A stretch of DNA of 64,000 nucleotides from Frankia nepalensis (GTDB taxonomy: Bacteria > Actinomycetota > Actinomycetes > Frankiales > Frankiaceae). The first letter of the stretch is position 1; every line of letters starts with the position of its first letter. The notes below the pieces were generated by a model. That model was not told where the DNA came from. It saw only the letters and a program-made list of their open reading frames with translations, and did no database searches. A program made the position numbers and the translations under genes. The DNA lies in assembly GCF_016786325.1 (NCBI RefSeq), contig NZ_JADWYU010000198.1:1-64000 (forward strand). Direction: 5' to 3'. This document shows positions 2,671 to 14,619 of this stretch, piece by piece.

Positions 2671-2881
2671 CCGCCGGGCGGGCGCCGTTCCACGACGAGA
2701 CGGAAACGGCGCGATGGTTGCCGCGCATCCCCCGGTTTGCCGCTCCTTGCGGTGTCAGGTTGCGGACAACGAATGGTTAGTCGCGCTTCGCTACCATGTG
2801 CGCGCATACGCGAATGACGCCCGAGGATGACCACACACGGCGGAAGCGGGCGGTTGAGCTACGCAACCGGGAGGTCTGGCT

Positions 2882-5308
2882 GTGCCGGTCGTCGACCGAG
2901 AGCGGATAGCCGCGGCGCTGCCCGGCCTCGTGCTCGGCCGGGAGCTGGGCTCGGGCGCCCACGGCCTGGTGCTGGCGGCGACCCAGCGGGAGCCGGAGCG
3001 AGACGTCGCGGTGAAGGTCATCGACCTCGGCCCGGCCCAGGAGACGACGGCGCCACCAACCGACGAGGCCGCCCTGCCCGCGCTGACGGCACTCGACCAT
3101 CCCCACCTGTGCCGGACGCACGCGGTCCTCACCGTCGACCGGATACTCCTGCTCGTCACCGAGCTGCTGCCCGGCGGGTCCCTCGGGCGACAGGACCTCG
3201 GCCCACCGGCGGGATGCGCGGTCGCGCTGGCCGTCGCGGACGGGCTGGCGCACGCCCACGCGGCCGGGATACTGCACGGCGGCCTCACGCCGGCGAACGT
3301 GCTGTTCACCGCGGGCGGGCGGCCGAAACTGACCGACCTCGGCGTCGCCGGGCTCGTCGCGGACGGCTCGTGGAGCGGCTCATCGAGCGGCTCGTCGAGC
3401 GACGGCCAGATCGTCGGCGCGCCCCAGTACCTGGCCCCGGAGCAGATCACGGGCGCCCCGCTCGGCCCGCCGACCGACCTGTACGCGCTCGCCGCCGTCC
3501 TCTACGAGCTGCTCGCCGGCGCCCCCCTGTTCGGGGCGGGGCTGACGGCCCAGGACCTGGTCCGCCACCACTGCGAGGTCGTCCCGCCGCCACCGCCGGG
3601 TGTTCCGGCGCCGGTGGCCGACACGCTGGCCCGGGCGCTGGCCAAGCAGCCGGCCGACCGTCACCAGACCGCCGCCGAGTTCGCCCTCGACCTCGCCGAC
3701 GCCGCCCGCCGCGGCTACGGGCCCGGGTGGCTCGAGGCGGCCGGGATCCCGGTCCAGGTCTCCGACGACGTGCGCGCCCGCGCCACCCAGGCCGTCGACC
3801 CCGAACCCGGCACCCCCCTGCCCGTCGGCCCCGGGCCGGTCGGCCTCCCGCCCGAGGACGCCGGTGGTGGGCCGTTCGACGCCGACTCCACCCTGCGCCT
3901 TCCCCCCGGTGGCACGCTCCTCCCGCTGCCCGTCCGCTCCGCGGCGCCGGCCGAGCCCTCCCTCGTCCCGACGGACGCGACCGCGATCCAGACCCGCTCG
4001 CTGGGTCCCCGACCAGCGGACGGGACCGGCACCGCCACCCCATCCGGCGACGCGCCCGCCCCCGCTGGCGCCGCGCCCGGCGGCGGGCGCGGCGGGCGCT
4101 CGCGAGCCTGGCGGATCGCGGTGCCGGTGGCCGTGGCGGTGGCCATCCTCGCCGCCGCGGCGGCCGTCGTCCTGCCCAGGGCTCTCGGTTCGGACGACGA
4201 GCCGGCGTCCCCGCAGGCGGCCCGCCGGCCGGCCGGCCCCACCGCGCCCCCGACGGTGGTGCCGACGTCCGGGCCGCTGTCCTCGCAGGCTCCCCCGGCC
4301 TACCCCCTCGCCCCGCTCGCCGGAACCGGGGAGGCCGGATTCTCCGGTGATGGCGGTCCCGCGACGGCGGCGGCCCTGAACCAGCCCATCGGCCCCGCGA
4401 TCGACGTCTTCGGGAACCTCTATGTCGCGGACTTCGGCAACAACAGGGTCCGCCGGATCAGCCTGGACGGCACGATCACGACGATCGCCGGCACCGGAGA
4501 GGCCGGCTTCTCGGGTGACGGCGGACCGGCGACGCAGGCCCAGCTGAACCAGCCGGCGGGCGTCGCGATCGGCCCCTTGGGCGAGCTCTACATCGTCGAC
4601 ACGTTCAACATGCGCGTCCGCCAGGTCAGCCCAGCCGGGATCATCACGACCGTCGCCGGCTCGGGCGAGCGCCCGTGGGACCCTGATCACGACGGCGGGC
4701 CCGCGACGGCCGCCTCGATGTGGTACCCGGCCGGGATCGCGGTCGACCCGGTCGGCAACGTCTTCGTCGCGGACATGGGCAATGACCTCATCCGCCGGAT
4801 CAGCGTCGACGGGATCATCACGACGGTCGCCGGCCGGTTCGGCGAGGGAGAATGGGGCGACGGCGGGCCCGCGAACGAGGCGATGGTCAGCAGCCCGTTC
4901 AGCGTGGCCTGCGACCGCGTCGGGCGGGTCTACATCGCGGACTCGTTCAATCACAAGGTCCGTCGGATCAACCTCGACGGCACGATCGAGACGATCGCCG
5001 GCACCGGCTTTCCCGGCTACTCGGGCGACGGCGGACCGGCCATCGCGGCGACGCTGCGCAACCCGCGCGGGGTCGCGGTGGACGCCGTCGGCAACGTCTA
5101 CATCACCGACGGGGACAACCACCGGATCCGCAGGATCGACCTCGGGGGGAACATCGCCACCATCGCGGGCACGGCCGATCCCGGCGAGGCGGGCGTGTCC
5201 GAGGCCGCGTTCCTTCCGGACGGCCCGGTCGTGGCGAACAACGTCGGCGGCATCTTCGCCACCGACCGCCAGCACAACCAGATCATTCTCATCAACGCGT
5301 TGGGCTAG
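2882..5308 (+). CDS. Membrane receptor with Ser/Thr kinase-like domain (probable pseudokinase) and NHL sensor
   Basis: An 808-residue protein; GTG 2882 is preceded by GGGAGG seven bases upstream. The kinase-like domain spans about residues 15-280 with a glycine loop (GSGAHG) and the ATP-binding Lys45 in VAVKV. The catalytic loop, normally HRDxKPxN, reads HGGLTPAN (residues 132-139): the catalytic Asp is Gly134 and the following Lys is Thr136. DFG is DLG. This predicts little or no phosphotransfer. A membrane segment lies near residues 410-435. The C-terminal part (from about 475) holds six NHL-type repeats with AGTG...GDGGPA and RRI..DG.ITT signatures, expected to form an extracytoplasmic beta-propeller. 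It is the first of three similar receptors and may regulate the two active ones. Confidence 0.9.
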   Translation: MPVVDRERIAAALPGLVLGRELGSGAHGLVLAATQREPERDVAVKVIDLGPAQETTAPPTDEAALPALTALDHPHLCRTHAVLTVDRILLLVTELLPGGSLGRQDLGPPAGCAVALAVADGLAHAHAAGILHGGLTPANVLFTAGGRPKLTDLGVAGLVADGSWSGSSSGSSSDGQIVGAPQYLAPEQITGAPLGPPTDLYALAAVLYELLAGAPLFGAGLTAQDLVRHHCEVVPPPPPGVPAPVADTLARALAKQPADRHQTAAEFALDLADAARRGYGPGWLEAAGIPVQVSDDVRARATQAVDPEPGTPLPVGPGPVGLPPEDAGGGPFDADSTLRLPPGGTLLPLPVRSAAPAEPSLVPTDATAIQTRSLGPRPADGTGTATPSGDAPAPAGAAPGGGRGGRSRAWRIAVPVAVAVAILAAAAAVVLPRALGSDDEPASPQAARRPAGPTAPPTVVPTSGPLSSQAPPAYPLAPLAGTGEAGFSGDGGPATAAALNQPIGPAIDVFGNLYVADFGNNRVRRISLDGTITTIAGTGEAGFSGDGGPATQAQLNQPAGVAIGPLGELYIVDTFNMRVRQVSPAGIITTVAGSGERPWDPDHDGGPATAASMWYPAGIAVDPVGNVFVADMGNDLIRRISVDGIITTVAGRFGEGEWGDGGPANEAMVSSPFSVACDRVGRVYIADSFNHKVRRINLDGTIETIAGTGFPGYSGDGGPAIAATLRNPRGVAVDAVGNVYITDGDNHRIRRIDLGGNIATIAGTADPGEAGVSEAAFLPDGPVVANNVGGIFATDRQHNQIILINALG

Positions 5309-5383
5309 CGGACACGGCGACGAGACGATCGACGGTGAGCGAAGGGGCCAGTCGGATGGCCACGCGACAGGAGGGACCACGCG

Positions 5384-7720
5384 GTGGCGGTCGTTGACCG
5401 GGCACGGGTGGGCGCGGCACTGCCGGGCTACACGCTCGGCGCCGAGCTGGGGGCCGGCGCCTTCGGCCTCGTGCTCGGCGCCCACCACCAGGACCTGGAC
5501 CGCCAGGTAGCCGTCAAGGTGCTCGTCAACACCGCGCCCCAGGCGGTGGCCGAGTTCCGCGCGGAGGCACGGCTGCTGGCGCGGCTCGACCATCCGCACA
5601 TCGTCCGCACCTATGACTACGTGGCCCGCGGCGACCTGTGCCTGCTCGTCATGGAGCTCCTCGCCGGCCCAACGCTCGCCAGGCGCCGGCCGCGTCCCGA
5701 GGCCTCCTGCGCCATCGTGCTGGCGCTGGCCGACGCGCTAGCGCACGCGCACGCCCACGGCGTGCTGCACCGCGACATCAAGCCGGCCAACGTCCTGTTC
5801 ACCGAGACGGGGCAGCCCAAGCTCGCCGACTTCGGCATCTCCAAGATCGTCGAAGGCTCCGCCTCCACGGCCAGCCGGGTCGTCGGCACCCCGAGGTACA
5901 TGGCCCCGGAGCAGATCACCGGCGGCCGGCTCAGCCCCGCCACCGACCTCTACGCGCTCGCCGCCGTCCTCTACGAGCTGCTCTCGGGCAGCCCGCTCGT
6001 CCCGCGCCGGGTGCCGCTGCCGGTGCTGCTCTACCACCACCTCGAGGTCGTCCCCCCACCCCCGCCGGGAGTGCCGGAACCGCTCGCCGACGTGGTGACG
6101 CGCAGCCTGGCCAAGCGGCCGGAGGACCGGCACCCCGACGCCCGCGCGTTCGCCGCCGACCTTGCGCGCGCCGCGACCAAGGTCTTCGGCCGCGGCTGGC
6201 TCGACCGGTCCGGCATCCCTGCCCGGATCTCCGAGGACGTCCGCGCCCTCACCACCAGCCGGCTCGCCCGGCTGGGTGGCCCTGACGGGACGGGGGACGG
6301 CCGGCGGGGGCGCCGCCCGCTGGCCTGGGCGGGCGTGGGCGCGACGGCGGCGCTCCTGGCCGGCACGCTCGCGGTCGGCGGCGCCGTCGGCGGCGGTATC
6401 AGCTGGGCCGCGTGGGGGGAGCGGCCGGAGCCGACGCCCACTCCCACCACGCCCCCGCCCGCCTGGCAGCCGACCACGCTCCAACTCGGGATGATCACCA
6501 GGGTGTTCGCCGCCGACGAGGGCTACGCCGGGGACGACGGGCCGGTCGACCTCGCCTCGTTCGACCTGCTGAGCGGCTTCGAGCTGGACCCGAAGCGCGG
6601 CCACCTGTACATCGCGGACACCTACAACGAGCGAGTCCGCCGCGTCGACCGGAACGGGATCGTCACGACGGTGGCCGGCAACGGGGTCAAGGGATTCGCC
6701 GGCGACGCCGGCCCCGCGACCAAGGCCCAGCTCAGCTGGCCCTGGGACGTCGCCGTGGCCGACGACGGCACGCTCTACATCGTGGACATCGAGAACAACA
6801 GGGTCCGGCGAATCGACACCCGCGGCGTCATCACCACGGTCGCGGGCACCGGAGACGCCGGGGGGAACTACAACGGGCCTGTCGGCGAGGACGGGCTGAC
6901 CTTCTCCGGCGACGGCGTGCCCGCGACGCAGGCGCACCTGAACGAGCCCAACAGCGTCGTCTTCGACGGGTACGGGAATCTCTACCTGGCGGACGGGTTC
7001 CACAACCGGATCCGCCGGATCGACACCAAAGGCGTCATCACGACGGTCGCGGGCACCGGAGTCGAGGGCTTCGCCGGCGACGGTGGACCCGCGACCAGGG
7101 CGTTCCTCGACTATCCCTCCGACCTGACGATCGGTCCCGACGGCAGTCTCTACTTCATCGACGAGGGCAACGTCAGGATTCGGCGGGTCACTCCCCAGGG
7201 CGTGATCACCACGATCGCCGGCAACGGGTCGAGGGAGTACTCCGGCGACGACGGGCCCGCCACCACGGCCGGGTTGGGCTCGTCCGGAACCATCGAGATA
7301 GACGCCGCCGGCACGATCTACCTCGCCGGCGAGAGCCGGATCCGCCGCATCGACACCCAAGGCATGATCACCACCATCGCGGGCACGGGAGAATCCGGCG
7401 ACAGCGGCGACGGCGGTCCCGCGAAGGAAGCCGAAATCGGCTTCGTGGTGGGACTCGCGCTCGACGACCAGGGGATCCTCTACGTCCTCACGAGCGACGG
7501 CCGGCTTCGCGCGATCCGCGTCGCCGAGCCGCCCTGCCTGGCGCCGCCCTGCCCGTCGCCGACCGCCTCGCGACCGGCGGCGAGCCCGACGGGAAGCCCT
7601 CGCCCGCCGGCGAGCCCGTCCGGGACGCCCCTTCCATCGATGACGTCTCCCCCGGTGACGTCGCCACCGGAGACGACGGCCGAGCCGCCAGCCACGGCCC
7701 CGGTCGCGACCGGCTCCTGA
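5384..7720 (+). CDS. Membrane Ser/Thr protein kinase with NHL-repeat sensor (copy 2)
   Basis: A 778-residue receptor kinase. GTG 5384 has AGGAGGGA seven bases upstream. The kinase core is intact: GAGAFG loop, VAVKV lysine near residue 44, HRDIKPAN with catalytic Asp131, DFGISK near 149 and a VGTPRYMAPEQ activation/P+1 segment. One membrane helix follows near residues 313-343. The C-terminal half has six NHL-like repeats (YIAD..N.RVRRVD...TTVAG), predicted to be a beta-propeller outside the membrane, then a Pro/Thr/Ser-rich tail. NHL in place of the more usual PASTA repeats suggests recognition of a protein or glycan rather than muropeptide; the ligand is unknown. It lies 75 bp after the pseudokinase and 9 bp before the third kinase. 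Confidence 0.93.
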   Translation: MAVVDRARVGAALPGYTLGAELGAGAFGLVLGAHHQDLDRQVAVKVLVNTAPQAVAEFRAEARLLARLDHPHIVRTYDYVARGDLCLLVMELLAGPTLARRRPRPEASCAIVLALADALAHAHAHGVLHRDIKPANVLFTETGQPKLADFGISKIVEGSASTASRVVGTPRYMAPEQITGGRLSPATDLYALAAVLYELLSGSPLVPRRVPLPVLLYHHLEVVPPPPPGVPEPLADVVTRSLAKRPEDRHPDARAFAADLARAATKVFGRGWLDRSGIPARISEDVRALTTSRLARLGGPDGTGDGRRGRRPLAWAGVGATAALLAGTLAVGGAVGGGISWAAWGERPEPTPTPTTPPPAWQPTTLQLGMITRVFAADEGYAGDDGPVDLASFDLLSGFELDPKRGHLYIADTYNERVRRVDRNGIVTTVAGNGVKGFAGDAGPATKAQLSWPWDVAVADDGTLYIVDIENNRVRRIDTRGVITTVAGTGDAGGNYNGPVGEDGLTFSGDGVPATQAHLNEPNSVVFDGYGNLYLADGFHNRIRRIDTKGVITTVAGTGVEGFAGDGGPATRAFLDYPSDLTIGPDGSLYFIDEGNVRIRRVTPQGVITTIAGNGSREYSGDDGPATTAGLGSSGTIEIDAAGTIYLAGESRIRRIDTQGMITTIAGTGESGDSGDGGPAKEAEIGFVVGLALDDQGILYVLTSDGRLRAIRVAEPPCLAPPCPSPTASRPAASPTGSPRPPASPSGTPLPSMTSPPVTSPPETTAEPPATAPVATGS

Positions 7721-7729
7721 GGACCCGAC

Positions 7730-10063
7730 ATGCCTGCCATCGACCGCGCGCGGGTGGCCGCCGCGCTGCCCCGCTACCGGCTGGGCGAGCAGCTCGGCGC
7801 GGGCTCGTTCGGGCTGGTCGTCGCCGGCCACCACCTGGACCTCGACCGCGCGGTGGCGGTGAAGGTCCTGCCCATCGAGGCGCCGGCGGCGGGGGGCGCG
7901 GCGCTCGCCGCCGACTTCCGGGCCGAGGCCCAGATCCTCAGCCGGCTCGACCATCCGCACATCGTCCGGATCTACGACTTCGTCAGCCAGGACGACCTGT
8001 GCCTCATCGTCATGGAGCTCCTCGCCGGCGGCACCCTCTCCCAGCACCGGCTGCCCACCGAGGCGGCCTGCGCCGTCGGTCTCGCCATGGCCGACGCGCT
8101 CGCCCACGCGCACGACCACGGCGCGCTGCACCGCGACGTCAAGCCCGACAACATCCTGTTCACCGCCACCGGCCAGCCCAAGCTCACCGACTTCGGCATC
8201 GGGAAGATCTTCGAGGAGTCCTCCGGCACGACCAGCCACCTGGCCGGCACGCCCCGGTACATGGCCCCCGAACAGATCGAGGGCCGCGTCAGCCGGGCCG
8301 CCGACCAGTACGCGCTCGGCGTCGTCCTCTACGAGCTGCTCGCCGGCCGGCCGCCGTTCGACCCGGCCCTTCCGGTGCCCGAGCTGCTCCGCCACCACCG
8401 CGAGGTCATGCCGCCCACGCCCACCGGGGTGCCCGCGCCCATCGCCGACGCCGTGATGACCGCGCTCGCGAAGGCGCCGGCGGACCGGCACCCGGACGCC
8501 GCCGCGTTCGGGCACGCGCTCGCCGCCGCGGCCGCGGCGGCGTACGGGCCGGACTGGCTCTCGATGACGGGCCTGATCGTGCGGCCACAGCGACCCAGGA
8601 CCGACGATCCGGCCGCGGCGCCCACCTCGGGGAGGCATGTCTTCAGGCCGGCCACCGCGCGTCCTGAACCGGCGCCGTGGACCTCCCAGCCGAGAACCGA
8701 CGCGGTCACGGACCGGTACCTCCCGCCCGACGACCCGACCCGGGCCGGGCCCCGGACACCGGCCGAGATCGCCGCCGCCGATCCGGCGACCGAACGCCCC
8801 GCCGACACGGGCGCCGCCACGGGCGACACCCGTAGGCCCGCCGTGGCGGACCGGCCGGGCGACGACACCCACCCGTTCGCCGACGCCCAGGTCGCTCGCC
8901 GGTGGTTCGCCCCGGACCGGCCCCTGGGCCGCGCCGTCCTCGCCGCCGCCGCGGCTCTGGTCGCGCTGGCCCTGGCCGTCACGGGCGTCGTGCTGGCCAC
9001 GCGCGACAGCGCAGACGGCGAGCCCATCGCCACCGGCGGCCCGGGCCCCGCGGGCCCGAGCCAGTCCGCTCGCCTCGGCCAGGTCGTCCTTCCCACGTAC
9101 TTCACGGCGTGGGCGCTCGGGCCCCGCGGGGAGCTCTACATCGCCAACAGCTCGAGTCCTATGGTCCTGGTCCGAGCCCCGGACGGAACGGGGACCGTCC
9201 TGGCCGGCACCGGCATCGAGGGAATCAGCGGAGACGGTGGCCCGGCGAAGGAGGCCAGGCTGTCCCGTCCGGCGGCCGTGGGCGTGGACAGCACCGGAAA
9301 CGTCTACATCCTGGACACGGGCAACAACCGGATCCGCCGCGTCGACCCCGCCGGGACCATCACGCGCTTCGCGGGCGGCGGCTCCGGCCAGCCGGACCAG
9401 GCCGGCCCGGTCCCGGCGACGTCGGTCCGGCTTGACTCCCTGTCCGACGACATCGCCGTGGACCGGAACGGCGACGTCTACTTCGCGGACCCGTCAACGG
9501 TCTACCGCGTGGACAGCGCGGGCCTGCTCACCCGGGTCGCCCGGATCGGCGACGAACCCACATCCGCGCCCACACCCGGCTCCGAGGATCCCGACGCGGG
9601 CCTGCCGCCGCTCGTCTCCGGTCTTCTCGGGGCGCTCGCCGTGCGGAACGGCCGGCTGTACGCGGTGGACTCCAAGACCAACGTGGTCCGCATGCTCGAC
9701 CAGGGGACGGTCACCACCGTCGCCGGCGCCGGACGGGAGGGAATCTCCGGCGACGTCGGCCTGGCGACCGAGGCCGACCTCAATCTGTCCTCCTCCGGAG
9801 GGACGATCGCCCTCGACGACCAGGGCAACCTCTATATCGCCGAAAGCAGCGCCTACCGGGTGCGTCGAGTCTCTCCCGACGGGTTCATCACGACGGTCGC
9901 GGGCAACGGACGCTCCGGCCCGTCCAACGAGGGCCGCCTCGCCGCCGGGCAGTCGCTCTACGCCGCCGACAAGGTCGCGGTGGCCGCTGGCGGCGCGCTC
10001 TACATCGACGGTGGCATCGACATCCTCGTGGTCAGCCCCGAGGGCATCCTCACCAAGCTCTGA
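7730..10063 (+). CDS. Membrane Ser/Thr protein kinase with NHL-repeat sensor (copy 3)
   Basis: A 777-residue receptor kinase that begins at ATG nine bases after the preceding stop, so it is co-transcribed with copy 2. The catalytic set is complete: GAGSFG, VAVKV, HRDVKPDN (Asp136), DFGIGK and GTPRYMAPEQ. A Pro/Ala-rich juxtamembrane stretch of over 100 residues leads to a membrane helix near 402-425. The sensor is again NHL-like (YILDTGNNRIRRVDP, TTVAGAGREG) but more divergent than in copies 1 and 2, with a longer loop rich in Pro and Asp. The kinase domain closely resembles copy 2, which points to local duplication followed by sensor divergence. It converges on the TetR gene with only 16 bp between the stops. 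Confidence 0.93.
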   Translation: MPAIDRARVAAALPRYRLGEQLGAGSFGLVVAGHHLDLDRAVAVKVLPIEAPAAGGAALAADFRAEAQILSRLDHPHIVRIYDFVSQDDLCLIVMELLAGGTLSQHRLPTEAACAVGLAMADALAHAHDHGALHRDVKPDNILFTATGQPKLTDFGIGKIFEESSGTTSHLAGTPRYMAPEQIEGRVSRAADQYALGVVLYELLAGRPPFDPALPVPELLRHHREVMPPTPTGVPAPIADAVMTALAKAPADRHPDAAAFGHALAAAAAAAYGPDWLSMTGLIVRPQRPRTDDPAAAPTSGRHVFRPATARPEPAPWTSQPRTDAVTDRYLPPDDPTRAGPRTPAEIAAADPATERPADTGAATGDTRRPAVADRPGDDTHPFADAQVARRWFAPDRPLGRAVLAAAAALVALALAVTGVVLATRDSADGEPIATGGPGPAGPSQSARLGQVVLPTYFTAWALGPRGELYIANSSSPMVLVRAPDGTGTVLAGTGIEGISGDGGPAKEARLSRPAAVGVDSTGNVYILDTGNNRIRRVDPAGTITRFAGGGSGQPDQAGPVPATSVRLDSLSDDIAVDRNGDVYFADPSTVYRVDSAGLLTRVARIGDEPTSAPTPGSEDPDAGLPPLVSGLLGALAVRNGRLYAVDSKTNVVRMLDQGTVTTVAGAGREGISGDVGLATEADLNLSSSGGTIALDDQGNLYIAESSAYRVRRVSPDGFITTVAGNGRSGPSNEGRLAAGQSLYAADKVAVAAGGALYIDGGIDILVVSPEGILTKL

Positions 10064-12084: not shown

Positions 12085-12177
12085 GAGCCTTGATCACGAG
12101 CGTGCGCGGCGTTCGTCCTGGGGCCGGCGGCGCCGTGGCGGGCCAGCGCCGTCTCCTGGGGCCGCTGGACCGGGCGG

Positions 12178-12214
12178 AAAATCAGGCGACCAGGTGGGGA
12201 CGGCAGGCTAGAGT
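12178..12214 (+). promoter_or_regulatory. Candidate erm promoter with WhiB7-like AT-rich upstream element
   Basis: TAGAGT (12209-12214) is a good -10 hexamer. The -35 position seventeen bases upstream (GCGACC, 12186-12191) is poor, but AAAATC (12178-12183) lies about three bases further upstream and stands out in very GC-rich DNA. WhiB7-activated promoters of actinobacterial drug-resistance genes are known for a short AT-rich element 3-5 bp upstream of a weak -35. Transcription would begin near 12221, right at the ATG of the leader peptide. This is a pattern match only. Confidence 0.42.
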
Positions 12215-12221
12215 GCGGCCC

Positions 12222-12284
12222 ATGGGAACGCTGGTGATGTGCGGCCGCGGGCCGCTGTTCTACGTGCGGGACCGCCGCGCCTGA
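12222..12284 (+). CDS. Leader peptide of the erm gene, 20 residues
   Basis: A short ORF from ATG 12222 to TGA 12284, starting MGTLVMCGRG and ending FYVRDRRA. It sits 119 bases upstream of the Erm-type methyltransferase in the same direction. Many erm genes are controlled by ribosome stalling on a leader peptide when a macrolide is bound. The C-terminal RDR fits the known +X+ (Arg/Lys-X-Arg/Lys) macrolide arrest motif. If the promoter at 12178-12214 is right, the transcript begins at or one base before the ATG, so the peptide would be translated leaderless, which actinobacteria do well. The stop codon lies in the loop of a strong hairpin. No Shine-Dalgarno sequence precedes it. Translation is predicted, not proven. 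Confidence 0.55.
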   Translation: MGTLVMCGRGPLFYVRDRRA

Positions 12285-12397
12285 GGGCGCGCTCTCGCTG
12301 ACCTACCGATCGCGCCCGCTCCTCCGGATGCTGTTCGCACCCGGACGCGGCTCCCATCACCGCCCTTCCGGGTGCTCCTCTCCTTGGCGACTGGAGC
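12276..12397 (+). promoter_or_regulatory. Attenuator-like leader folds of erm
   Basis: Three hairpin options lie between the leader peptide and erm. (a) 12276-12281 pairs with 12286-12291 (CGCGCC/GGCGCG) around a UGAG loop holding the leader stop codon. (b) GCACCCGG 12337-12344 pairs with CCGGGTGC 12368-12375. (c) GCTCC 12374-12378 pairs with GGAGC 12393-12397, which contains the erm Shine-Dalgarno GGAG. Folds (b) and (c) overlap at 12374-12375 and so compete: one exposes and the other hides the ribosome site, as in translational attenuation. Confidence 0.5.
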
Positions 12398-12403
12398 GCT
12401 CCC

Positions 12404-13237
12404 GTGCGATCTCGTTCCCTTCACGGTGGCCGGCATGAGCTTGGCCAGAACTTCCTGCGTGACCGCCGGACGATCGACCGGATCGTCGGTCTCGTCCGCG
12501 CGACCGACGGGCCGATCCTGGAGATCGGCGCCGGCGACGGCGCGCTCACCCGAGGGCTCGCGGCCCTCGGGCGGGACGTGCTCGCCGTCGACCTCGACGA
12601 GCGCCGGGTAGACGGCCTGCGCCGGCGCCTGCCGTCGGTGACCGTCCGCCAGGCCGACGCGCTGCGCGTGCGGCTCGACCGCCCGGTGATCGTCGGCAAC
12701 ATCCCGTTCCACCTCACCACCCCGATCCTGCGCCGCTCGCTCGCCGCGGACGGATGGCGCGAGGCGATCTTCCTGACCCAGTGGGAGGTGGCCCGCAAGC
12801 GGGCGGGTGTCGGCGGGCGCACGATGATGACGGCGCAGACGGCGCCGTGGTTCGACTTCGCGCTGCACGGACGGGTGGCCGCGGGCGCGTTCATCCCGAG
12901 GCCCAGCGTCGACGCCGGCATCCTCGCGATCAGCCGTCGAGCCACACCGCTGGTCGCCCCCGCCGACCGGCGGGCCTACGAACGGTTCGTCCACGCGGTG
13001 TTCACCGGCCCCGGCCGCGGGATCGGACAGATCCTCGCCCTGGCCACGCCCGGCCCGAGACCATCGCGCCGAGCCGCGCTGGCTGCCGCGGCGCTGGATC
13101 CCACCGCCCTGCCCCGTGACCTCACTCCTGGGCAGTGGGCGACGCTCTGGCACCTGCTCGGCCGTCCCGTGAACGACCAGGCGACGTCCCCGCCGGGCGG
13201 GCGGCCGGCGTCCCAGCCGCGCGGGAACCGGCGGTGA
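12404..13237 (+). CDS. erm: Erm-family 23S rRNA (adenine-N6)-methyltransferase
   Basis: A 277-residue enzyme predicted to methylate A2058 of 23S rRNA with S-adenosylmethionine, giving resistance to macrolides, lincosamides and streptogramin B. The N-terminal RHELGQNFLRD is the hallmark of Erm rather than KsgA. It is followed by the SAM-binding motif ILEIGAGDGALTRGL, an acidic ribose-binding VDLDE and the catalytic NIPFHLTTP. GTG 12404 has GGAG seven bases upstream. The C-terminal domain is of usual length, with a Pro/Gly/Arg-rich tail. The neighbours are not antibiotic biosynthesis genes, so this looks like a stand-alone intrinsic resistance gene under leader control. Mono- versus dimethylation cannot be told from sequence. 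Confidence 0.9.
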   Translation: MRSRSLHGGRHELGQNFLRDRRTIDRIVGLVRATDGPILEIGAGDGALTRGLAALGRDVLAVDLDERRVDGLRRRLPSVTVRQADALRVRLDRPVIVGNIPFHLTTPILRRSLAADGWREAIFLTQWEVARKRAGVGGRTMMTAQTAPWFDFALHGRVAAGAFIPRPSVDAGILAISRRATPLVAPADRRAYERFVHAVFTGPGRGIGQILALATPGPRPSRRAALAAAALDPTALPRDLTPGQWATLWHLLGRPVNDQATSPPGGRPASQPRGNRR

Positions 13238-13272: not shown

Positions 13273-14619
13273 CTACTCGCCAGCGCCCGGCCCGCCGCCC
13301 GTTCGGCCGTACCGGTCGGCGATCCGCGCGGCTGTCGCCAGCGCCGTCCGCCCAGCCTCGACGTCGCCGCTGTCGACGAGCACCTGTCCGTCGGTCCGGA
13401 CGCAGTCGACCACCAGGGCCGCCACCTCCGGGTGGACGGACGCGAACGGCATCAGCCGCTCGGCCACCGCCACCATCCACCGCCCGAGGTCCACCGCGAA
13501 CACCAGGTCGCCGTCCGCGCGGGCCTGCCGGCAGCAGGCCAGCAAGGCCGTCGCCCAGTGCGGGCCGTAGTCCCCGAACTGGTAGCGCATCCCGAGCGTC
13601 TGGGCCTCGGAGGCGACGAGGAACAGGTGGTGCGCGTCGACGACCAGCCGCGCCGCCGCGGCGGGCTGGCCGGCGAACCGGCGCGCGAGCCCGGTGAGCT
13701 CGACGGCGTGCGCGGCCGCGACCGCCGCGGTCTCTGGCCTGTCCGCCCGGTCGCCGGGAAGCAGGACGGGATCTGCTTCGTCCCTCGGCCGCCGGACGAA
13801 CCGTCTCGCGGCGGTGACGTCCGCCCCCTCGCGCTCGGCGGCGTCGAGCGCCGCGGTGAGCGTGAGCGTCAGGTCGGGCGGGCTGTCCGAGGCCAATCGG
13901 TCGCCGAGCAGCGTCGGCATCCTCGCGGGCAGGGGGCCGCCGGCGATCTCGACCAGCACCTGCTCGACCGCGGCTGCGCCCTCGTGCTCGCCCTGGGCGG
14001 CGAGGACGCAGCGCATGACGTCCGACGCCCACAGGAAATAGGCGAACGTGCCGTCCGTGGGGACGGACAGCCGGGGTCCGCGCCTCGTCAGGGCCAGGTT
14101 CACCGCGCGCTTCGCGCAGGCGAGCGCGAGCCCCGGGTCGCCGCATGCCGCCTGGACCTGCGCGGCGACGCCGAGCGTCCGCACGGCCTCGGCGGGCACC
14201 ATCGGGTGGGACCGGTACTGCCGGAACGCCGCGCGCAGGTCCTCGAGGGCGGACAGCCGCGCGCCGCGGTGGGCGTGCCCCAGCGCGCGGCGGGCACGAA
14301 CGTCGGCGACCCAGTCGTCGCGGGCGGGAAAGGACGCGGCCGGCAGGCTCTCGTATGCCTTCTCGGCTTCGCCCAGCACGGCGACGGCCTCGGCGCGCCG
14401 CCCAGCGCCCGCCAGCTTCGCCCCGAGGGTGTAGGCGGTGGCGCCGAACATCCGGGCATGCTCGTGCACGTCCGGCTCTCGTTCCCGCAACTGGCGGACG
14501 AGGTCCAGCGCGCGCAGGCTCAGCCGCGACGCCTCGTCGAACCTGCCCGCCGCCTCGTGGCCGTCGGCCTTTCGCACGAGGGCCTGGGCCTGTGCCATGA
14601 GGTTCCTCGTGGATTCCAC
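13273..14619 (-). CDS. Uncharacterised TPR-like helical protein
   Basis: A 448-residue, almost wholly helical protein rich in Ala and Arg. Tetratricopeptide-like helix pairs are visible in the N-terminal third (GHEAAGRFDEASRLSLRAL, then ...AVAVLGEAEKAYESL) and again at the C-terminus (LVDSGDVEAGRTALATAARI). There is no DNA-binding, ATPase or membrane segment, so a cytoplasmic scaffold is likely. GTG 14619 has GGGAGG seven bases upstream. The gene converges on erm with 35 bp between the stops and is about 190 bp from the next gene. I do not recognise a named family; similar solitary TPR proteins often occur beside regulators in actinomycetes. Confidence 0.75.
   Translation of the reverse strand: MESTRNLMAQAQALVRKADGHEAAGRFDEASRLSLRALDLVRQLREREPDVHEHARMFGATAYTLGAKLAGAGRRAEAVAVLGEAEKAYESLPAASFPARDDWVADVRARRALGHAHRGARLSALEDLRAAFRQYRSHPMVPAEAVRTLGVAAQVQAACGDPGLALACAKRAVNLALTRRGPRLSVPTDGTFAYFLWASDVMRCVLAAQGEHEGAAAVEQVLVEIAGGPLPARMPTLLGDRLASDSPPDLTLTLTAALDAAEREGADVTAARRFVRRPRDEADPVLLPGDRADRPETAAVAAAHAVELTGLARRFAGQPAAAARLVVDAHHLFLVASEAQTLGMRYQFGDYGPHWATALLACCRQARADGDLVFAVDLGRWMVAVAERLMPFASVHPEVAALVVDCVRTDGQVLVDSGDVEAGRTALATAARIADRYGRTGGGPGAGE

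Follow-up and report, generated by a model that had tools for sequence, protein, structure and literature searches.

The window analyzed here, a stretch of 64,000 nucleotides, comes from the 10.7 Mb, high-GC genome of the actinobacterium Frankia nepalensis. Its forward strand carries at 12404–13237 an erm gene, with a GTG start at 12404, for a 23S rRNA (adenine-2058-N6)-methyltransferase of 277 amino acids. The product scores 235.4 bits against the NCBIfam profile Erm23S_rRNA_broad (cut-off 212) and 7.6e-27 against Pfam RrnaAD, and its best-matching named alleles are Erm(46), Erm(55) and Erm(38). By these profile matches the gene is a genuine Erm, as the initial annotation had proposed, and methylation of A2058 with MLS resistance is its predicted activity.

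A sulfotransferase gene adjoining erm is present in all seven congeners, and the neighbor on the other side (13273–14619, minus strand), a 448-aa protein with no match in Pfam or NCBIfam, in none of them. This distribution suggests that the erm segment was gained by this genome. Of the seven congeners, G005 alone has an erm; this divergent gene (G005:C4, L084/L127; 52% identity) has a short leader (MCAAIRLRSAR), a GAAATT box 26 nt before TACCCT, and a start codon 10 nt after this -10 element. Elsewhere in the window, three tandem large ORFs of approximately 780–816 aa (2858–10063, plus strand) resemble serine/threonine kinases that have NHL-type repeats at the C terminus. Many Erm proteins of actinobacteria serve to protect the producing organism, and other PKS loci are found elsewhere in the genome, which would fit a constitutive self-resistance gene belonging to a macrolide biosynthetic cluster. 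However, none of the 19 ketosynthase matches of the genome is on the erm contig, and the neighbors of erm are the sulfotransferase-like gene and uncharacterized ORFs. A macrolide-cluster context was rejected because the contig lacks a ketosynthase, and we regard self-resistance as very improbable.

Upstream of erm, a 20-codon ORF encoding MGTLVMCGRGPLFYVRDRRA occupies positions 12222–12284 of the same strand, with a gap of 119 nt between its end and the erm GTG. Its residues R16-D17-R18 (12267–12275), at codons -5 to -3 before the stop, form a putative arrest tripeptide of the +X+ type, with R-x-R at the matching codons in relatives. Neither Pfam nor NCBIfam searches recognized the leader peptides, and a literature search for the peptide VRDRRA gave no relevant match. 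The ORF that had been proposed as a stalling leader is present, and its peptide, which had been noted as outside the known leader types, is a new sequence type, yet its R-x-R belongs to a known motif class.

The region between the arrest codons and erm contains seven segments on the plus strand that can pair in alternative ways. Segment 1 (CGCGCC, 12276–12281), which would sit under a stalled ribosome, pairs with segment 2 (GGGCGCG, 12285–12291), immediately 3' of the leader stop; this is the stop hairpin (12276–12281 with 12286–12291). The other partner of segment 2 is segment 3 (CGCGCCC, 12311–12317). Segment 4 (TCCGGATGC, 12323–12331) pairs with segment 5 (GCACCCGGA, 12337–12345) with a conserved A x C mismatch, and segment 5 is common to hairpins 4:5 and 5:6. 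In segment 6 (12367–12378), TCCGGGTGC (12367–12375) forms 9 bp with segment 5, and the 3' part GTGCTCC (12372–12378) pairs instead with segment 7 (GGAGCGC, 12393–12399), which contains the erm Shine-Dalgarno sequence GGAG. The hairpin at the leader stop and the two downstream folds of the initial annotation were all recovered, the latter as helices 12337–12345/12367–12375 and 12372–12378/12393–12399, which match covarying or conserved helices.

Whether related erm loci conserve the peptide had been named beforehand as the test on which the leader could fail. We compared 80 related erm loci from named records (55–74% identity), with genera including Amycolatopsis, Aeromicrobium, Mumia, Gordonia, Microbacterium, Cellulomonas, Kocuria, Saccharomonospora, Nocardioides and Dietzia. 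Automatic detection found a leader in 70 of them, with conserved spacing, and one further leader (MGTLCSAPMTGCTFMIRDRQR in L022) was recognized by eye; in the remaining nine loci the leader is cut by a contig end (L012), split by an insertion (L042), shortened (five loci) or absent (two loci). The peptide is thus strongly conserved, and so is the proposed +X+ motif, since 61 of the 64 distinct leader sequences keep R-x-R at codons -5 to -3. The middle residue is D (46), P (7), E (4), L (3) or, more rarely, N or Y, and the leaders usually end with R-A-stop. At the two flanking R codons, the entropies at codon positions 1/2/3 are 0.21/0.24/1.00 and 0.33/0.24/0.63, that is, third positions vary more than first and second ones, so the amino acid is kept, as expected of a selected peptide. 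When 396 genomes across the phylum were scanned for the pattern of the leader end, it occurred twice before erm and once in an unrelated context, and hence no use of it outside erm was found.

An attenuator that senses charged tRNA-Arg through the run of Arg codons, rather than the drug, is a reading that could draw on the three Arg codons among the last five of the window leader. In Cellulomonas-type leaders, which are exceptions to R-x-R, these codons read R-P-W and include only one Arg, and XPW is listed beside +X+ among the erythromycin arrest motifs (PMC8298421). Since the macrolide arrest motif is retained and the downstream gene is a macrolide-resistance methyltransferase and not one of arginine metabolism, control by arginine supply is hardly credible.

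Several loci deviate from the common arrangement. In L043, L049, L058, L059 and L060 the leader is shortened to MGTLIFAR-stop; this group is a mobile-looking erm, near-identical in Agrococcus, Arthrobacter, Brevibacterium, Leucobacter and Actinomyces, and the attenuator model still matches the four loci tested (E from 3e-5 to 4e-4). These leaders may use a different arrest mode or may be decaying. In Brevibacterium sp. 68QC2CO (L042:1507-2950), a stretch of about 1.2 kb with IS-like ends is inserted between segments 4 and 5 and parts the intact leader MGNLICVFAATHTLAVRDRRA from its erm, which is possibly a constitutive derivative. The erm of Desertihabitans aurantiacus (L066) has no visible leader and apparently lies directly after an ABC-F-like ATPase gene.

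Covariation was analyzed in an alignment of 65 intergenic regions. Helix 5:6 is paired in 95.6% of cells, compared with 88.9% in the best of 500 shuffles, and shows 10, 18 and 26 two-sided changes at three of its pairs; helix 4:5 is likewise above shuffles, with 24, 25 and 16 such changes at three pairs, all these counts being uncorrected for shared ancestry. The A x C mismatch of helix 4:5 is kept in 50 of the 65 regions and is absent from 5:6. Segments 4, 5 and 6 thus change together, as two mutually exclusive hairpins sharing segment 5 would, and the comparative evidence for the exclusive folds 4:5 and 5:6 is real. Helix 6:7, which hides the GGAG, is paired in 98.9% of cells and is nearly invariant. 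Covariance, by which both downstream folds were to be judged, consequently supports 5:6 above shuffles, but 6:7 is too invariant to covary beyond them.

The remaining comparative results agree with this picture. RNAalifold applied to 27 other loci gave a consensus with helices 2:3, 4:5 and 6:7, and in the window helix 2:3 carries a compensatory change from C-G to G-C (12285 C->G matched by 12317 G->C). A covariance model trained on these 27 loci, with the window left out, matched positions 12267–12406 with E = 9.5e-18, the sole match in the window. An Rfam search of the locus returned nothing relevant. Single-sequence folding of the locus is unremarkable (z = -0.91), so the evidence is comparative: the leader, its spacing and the helices recur in related loci, and on these grounds the arrangement is not a product of chance.

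In equilibrium folding, both by accessibility and with constraints, the erm ribosome site was mostly closed with or without a stalled ribosome, and of the loci folded with segment 1 masked, 31 shifted towards the ON state and 27 towards OFF. The isolated helix energies in the window are -11.1 (1:2), -18.5 (3-4:5-5') and -16.9 (6:7) versus -15.7 (2:3) and -24.6 (5:6). Their sums would yield an ON/OFF shift, which we discounted because the constrained folds disagree. As the ribosome site is not opened consistently at equilibrium, the switch, if working, must rely on the order of folding during transcription.

Stalling might also act by blocking termination, Rho-dependent or intrinsic, rather than by releasing the ribosome site. 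Both layers are combined in B. subtilis tlrB (PMC6851288), and whiB7 itself has a leader with a terminator (PMC10727445). At the present locus, on the other hand, none of the intergenic hairpins has a U-run behind it, and the last helix, which is conserved, involves precisely the GGAG of the Shine-Dalgarno sequence, so we consider such transcriptional attenuation unlikely.

The promoter region, together with the start of the leader, goes beyond the initial annotation. A -10 element TAGAGT (TANNNT; 12209–12214, plus strand) is located 7 nt before the leader ATG, and a WhiB7/WblC-type box GAAAAT (GAAAWY; 12177–12182, plus strand) lies 26 nt upstream of it. The WblC promoter consensus, as given in PMC7157823, is GAAAWY, 3 bp, -35, 16–19 bp and TANNNT, and the window sequence has this pattern with a spacing consistent with 3+6+17; its -35 hexamer, GCGACC, agrees poorly with TKGMNN, which the same paper describes as less conserved. 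In the whole genome, GAAAWY-N26-TANNNT-N7-RTG occurs twice, once at the leader. Nearly all related loci have TANNNT 6–8 nt ahead of the leader start codon, and WblC-activated promoters start transcription 7–8 bp downstream of the -10 element (PMC7157823). Given these two distances, transcription is predicted to begin at or within 1 base of the A of the ATG, so that the leader mRNA would almost certainly be leaderless.

The source genome encodes a WhiB7 orthologue (G000:C199:83114-83260) with the AT-hook end KRPRGRPRK. We scored the box as a run of at least 4 A/T at the box position and counted a WhiB7 orthologue if the match reached the AT-hook. In 25 erm-bearing genomes, the box was present in 10/10 with whiB7 and in 0/15 without it (Fisher p = 3e-7, uncorrected for ancestry). 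The contrast repeats within what we take, from general taxonomy, to be groups: Mumia and Nocardioides versus Aeromicrobium, Gordonia versus Corynebacterium, and Cellulomonas/Isoptericola versus Microbacteriaceae and Kocuria. In nine of those genomes, whiB7 is itself preceded by a similar, comparably spaced box; for whiB7 of the source genome, the pattern was not found within 870 nt upstream. We infer binding of WhiB7 at the window promoter, and the erm transcript of this host, like those of other actinobacteria with WhiB7, probably comes from a WhiB7-activated promoter.

This promoter could be the real switch, with the leader ORF and the hairpins being a relic or tuning mRNA stability. Direct activation of erm(41) of M. 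abscessus by WhiB7 (PMC10727445) and of lrm in S. coelicolor by WblC (PMC7157823) would favor induction by WhiB7 only, as would the WblC-type promoter in the window and the lack of a switch in equilibrium folding. However, the leader and the covarying attenuator are equally conserved in genomes having neither a WhiB7 orthologue nor the box, and the compensatory pair maintains helix 2:3 in the window itself. We therefore find it quite improbable that the leader and hairpins play no part in induction.

The reading that we prefer, with an estimated probability of about 0.84, is that a drug-sensing leader-peptide attenuator controls erm; stalling on this peptide, the order of refolding and drug-dependent induction are predicted parts of it. 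Transcription would begin at or beside the leader ATG. Without drug, the leader would be completed, helices 1:2 and 4:5 would form, and helix 6:7 would hide the erm ribosome site (OFF). A macrolide in the exit tunnel would make the ribosome stall when Asp17 occupies the P site and Arg18 is next to enter the A site. In the tested RYR leader of B. subtilis tlrB, X is in the P site and toeprints lie 15–16 nt downstream of the P-site codon (PMC6851288); this distance, applied to RDR, would place the leading edge at about the leader stop codon, as deduced from position. Segment 1 would then be covered and segment 2 free, which would explain the constant distance of the motif to the stop. Segment 2 would pair with 3 and segment 5 with 6, releasing the erm ribosome site (ON), and Erm would methylate A2058, leading to resistance. 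In this host, the system would have two inputs, the WhiB7-activated promoter and the leader switch.

Known systems share parts of this arrangement. ErmDL (RLR-type) stalls with macrolides or ketolides at Arg-X-Arg with X in the P site, followed by mRNA refolding and erm expression (PMC8298421); its motif is that of the window leader but comprises residues 6–8 rather than 16–18 with a central Asp, and no WhiB7 layer is described for it. The tlrB (yxjB) leader MIIQFIRYR likewise has a C-terminal R-x-R, a stalled ribosome and a hairpin sequestering the Shine-Dalgarno sequence (PMC6851288), but tlrB encodes a G748 methyltransferase, responds to tylosin and not to erythromycin, and has an intrinsic terminator and its own Shine-Dalgarno sequence. 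Also erm(41) of M. abscessus and lrm of S. coelicolor are rRNA methyltransferase genes under WhiB7/WblC, as proposed for the window; the available portions of PMC10727445 and PMC7157823 describe no leader-peptide attenuator for them, whereas the window locus would stack both layers.

Among Erm alleles, the Erm(X) leader of Corynebacterium plasmid pLEW279a (MLISGTAFLRLRSNR, ending with FLRLRSNR) resembles that of the window in its +X+ motif (RLR), the related Erm downstream and the -10 element 7 nt before the start codon, and was proposed to work by erythromycin-inducible translational attenuation (PMC3350403). It differs in peptide sequence and motif position, lacks R-x-R-R-A-stop and is unmatched by the covariance model of the window relatives. 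The leaders of Erm(55) (M. chelonae pMchErm55; MGITSVAVIRIRRF, ending with VIRIRRF) and Erm(36) (Micrococcus pMEC2; MGSPSIAVTRFRRF, ending with VTRFRRF) have RIR and RFR, respectively, at codons -5 to -3, the same position as in the window, and a start codon 6–7 nt after TANNNT. They differ in having 14 residues, a terminal F and another stop-hairpin sequence, and are also unmatched by the covariance model. The Erm(50) leader, which contains GRLRN, fits the pattern as well. As an exception, in erm(46) of Prescottella equi pVAPA2287 (L110; leader MGNTNIAVTEFRRF, ending with TEFRRF) Glu replaces the first Arg of R-x-R.

Macrolide-stalled +X+ leaders (PMC8298421, PMC6851288), the proposed erm(X) leader (PMC3350403) and erm genes controlled by WhiB7 (PMC10727445, PMC7157823) are already known. 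The R-x-R-R-A-stop leader family, its leaderless start and the stacked WhiB7 layer are undescribed in the open-licence literature searched, though subscription journals may mention them. A 2024 survey of erm upstream regions concluded that universal conservation is lacking for uORFs and palindromes, which may have independent origins (PMC11264731). Within this actinobacterial Erm clade we observed the opposite: peptide, arrest codon and attenuator travel together across many genera, and relatives of the leader switch occur on plasmids of human-associated actinobacteria. The leader family is a natural mutant series at a fixed codon (RDR, RPR, RER, RLR, RPW, EFR and truncated), which makes arrest-motif rules directly testable. 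We give even odds to a two-input switch, in which WhiB7, responding to general translation stress, would make the transcript and the leaderless macrolide-sensing leader would license its translation. Gain or loss of the box with whiB7, with persistence of the leader, would then mean that these are separable modules added and removed by evolution, and the box, present or absent with the regulator, offers a clean comparative case of a general stress regulon capturing a drug-specific switch.
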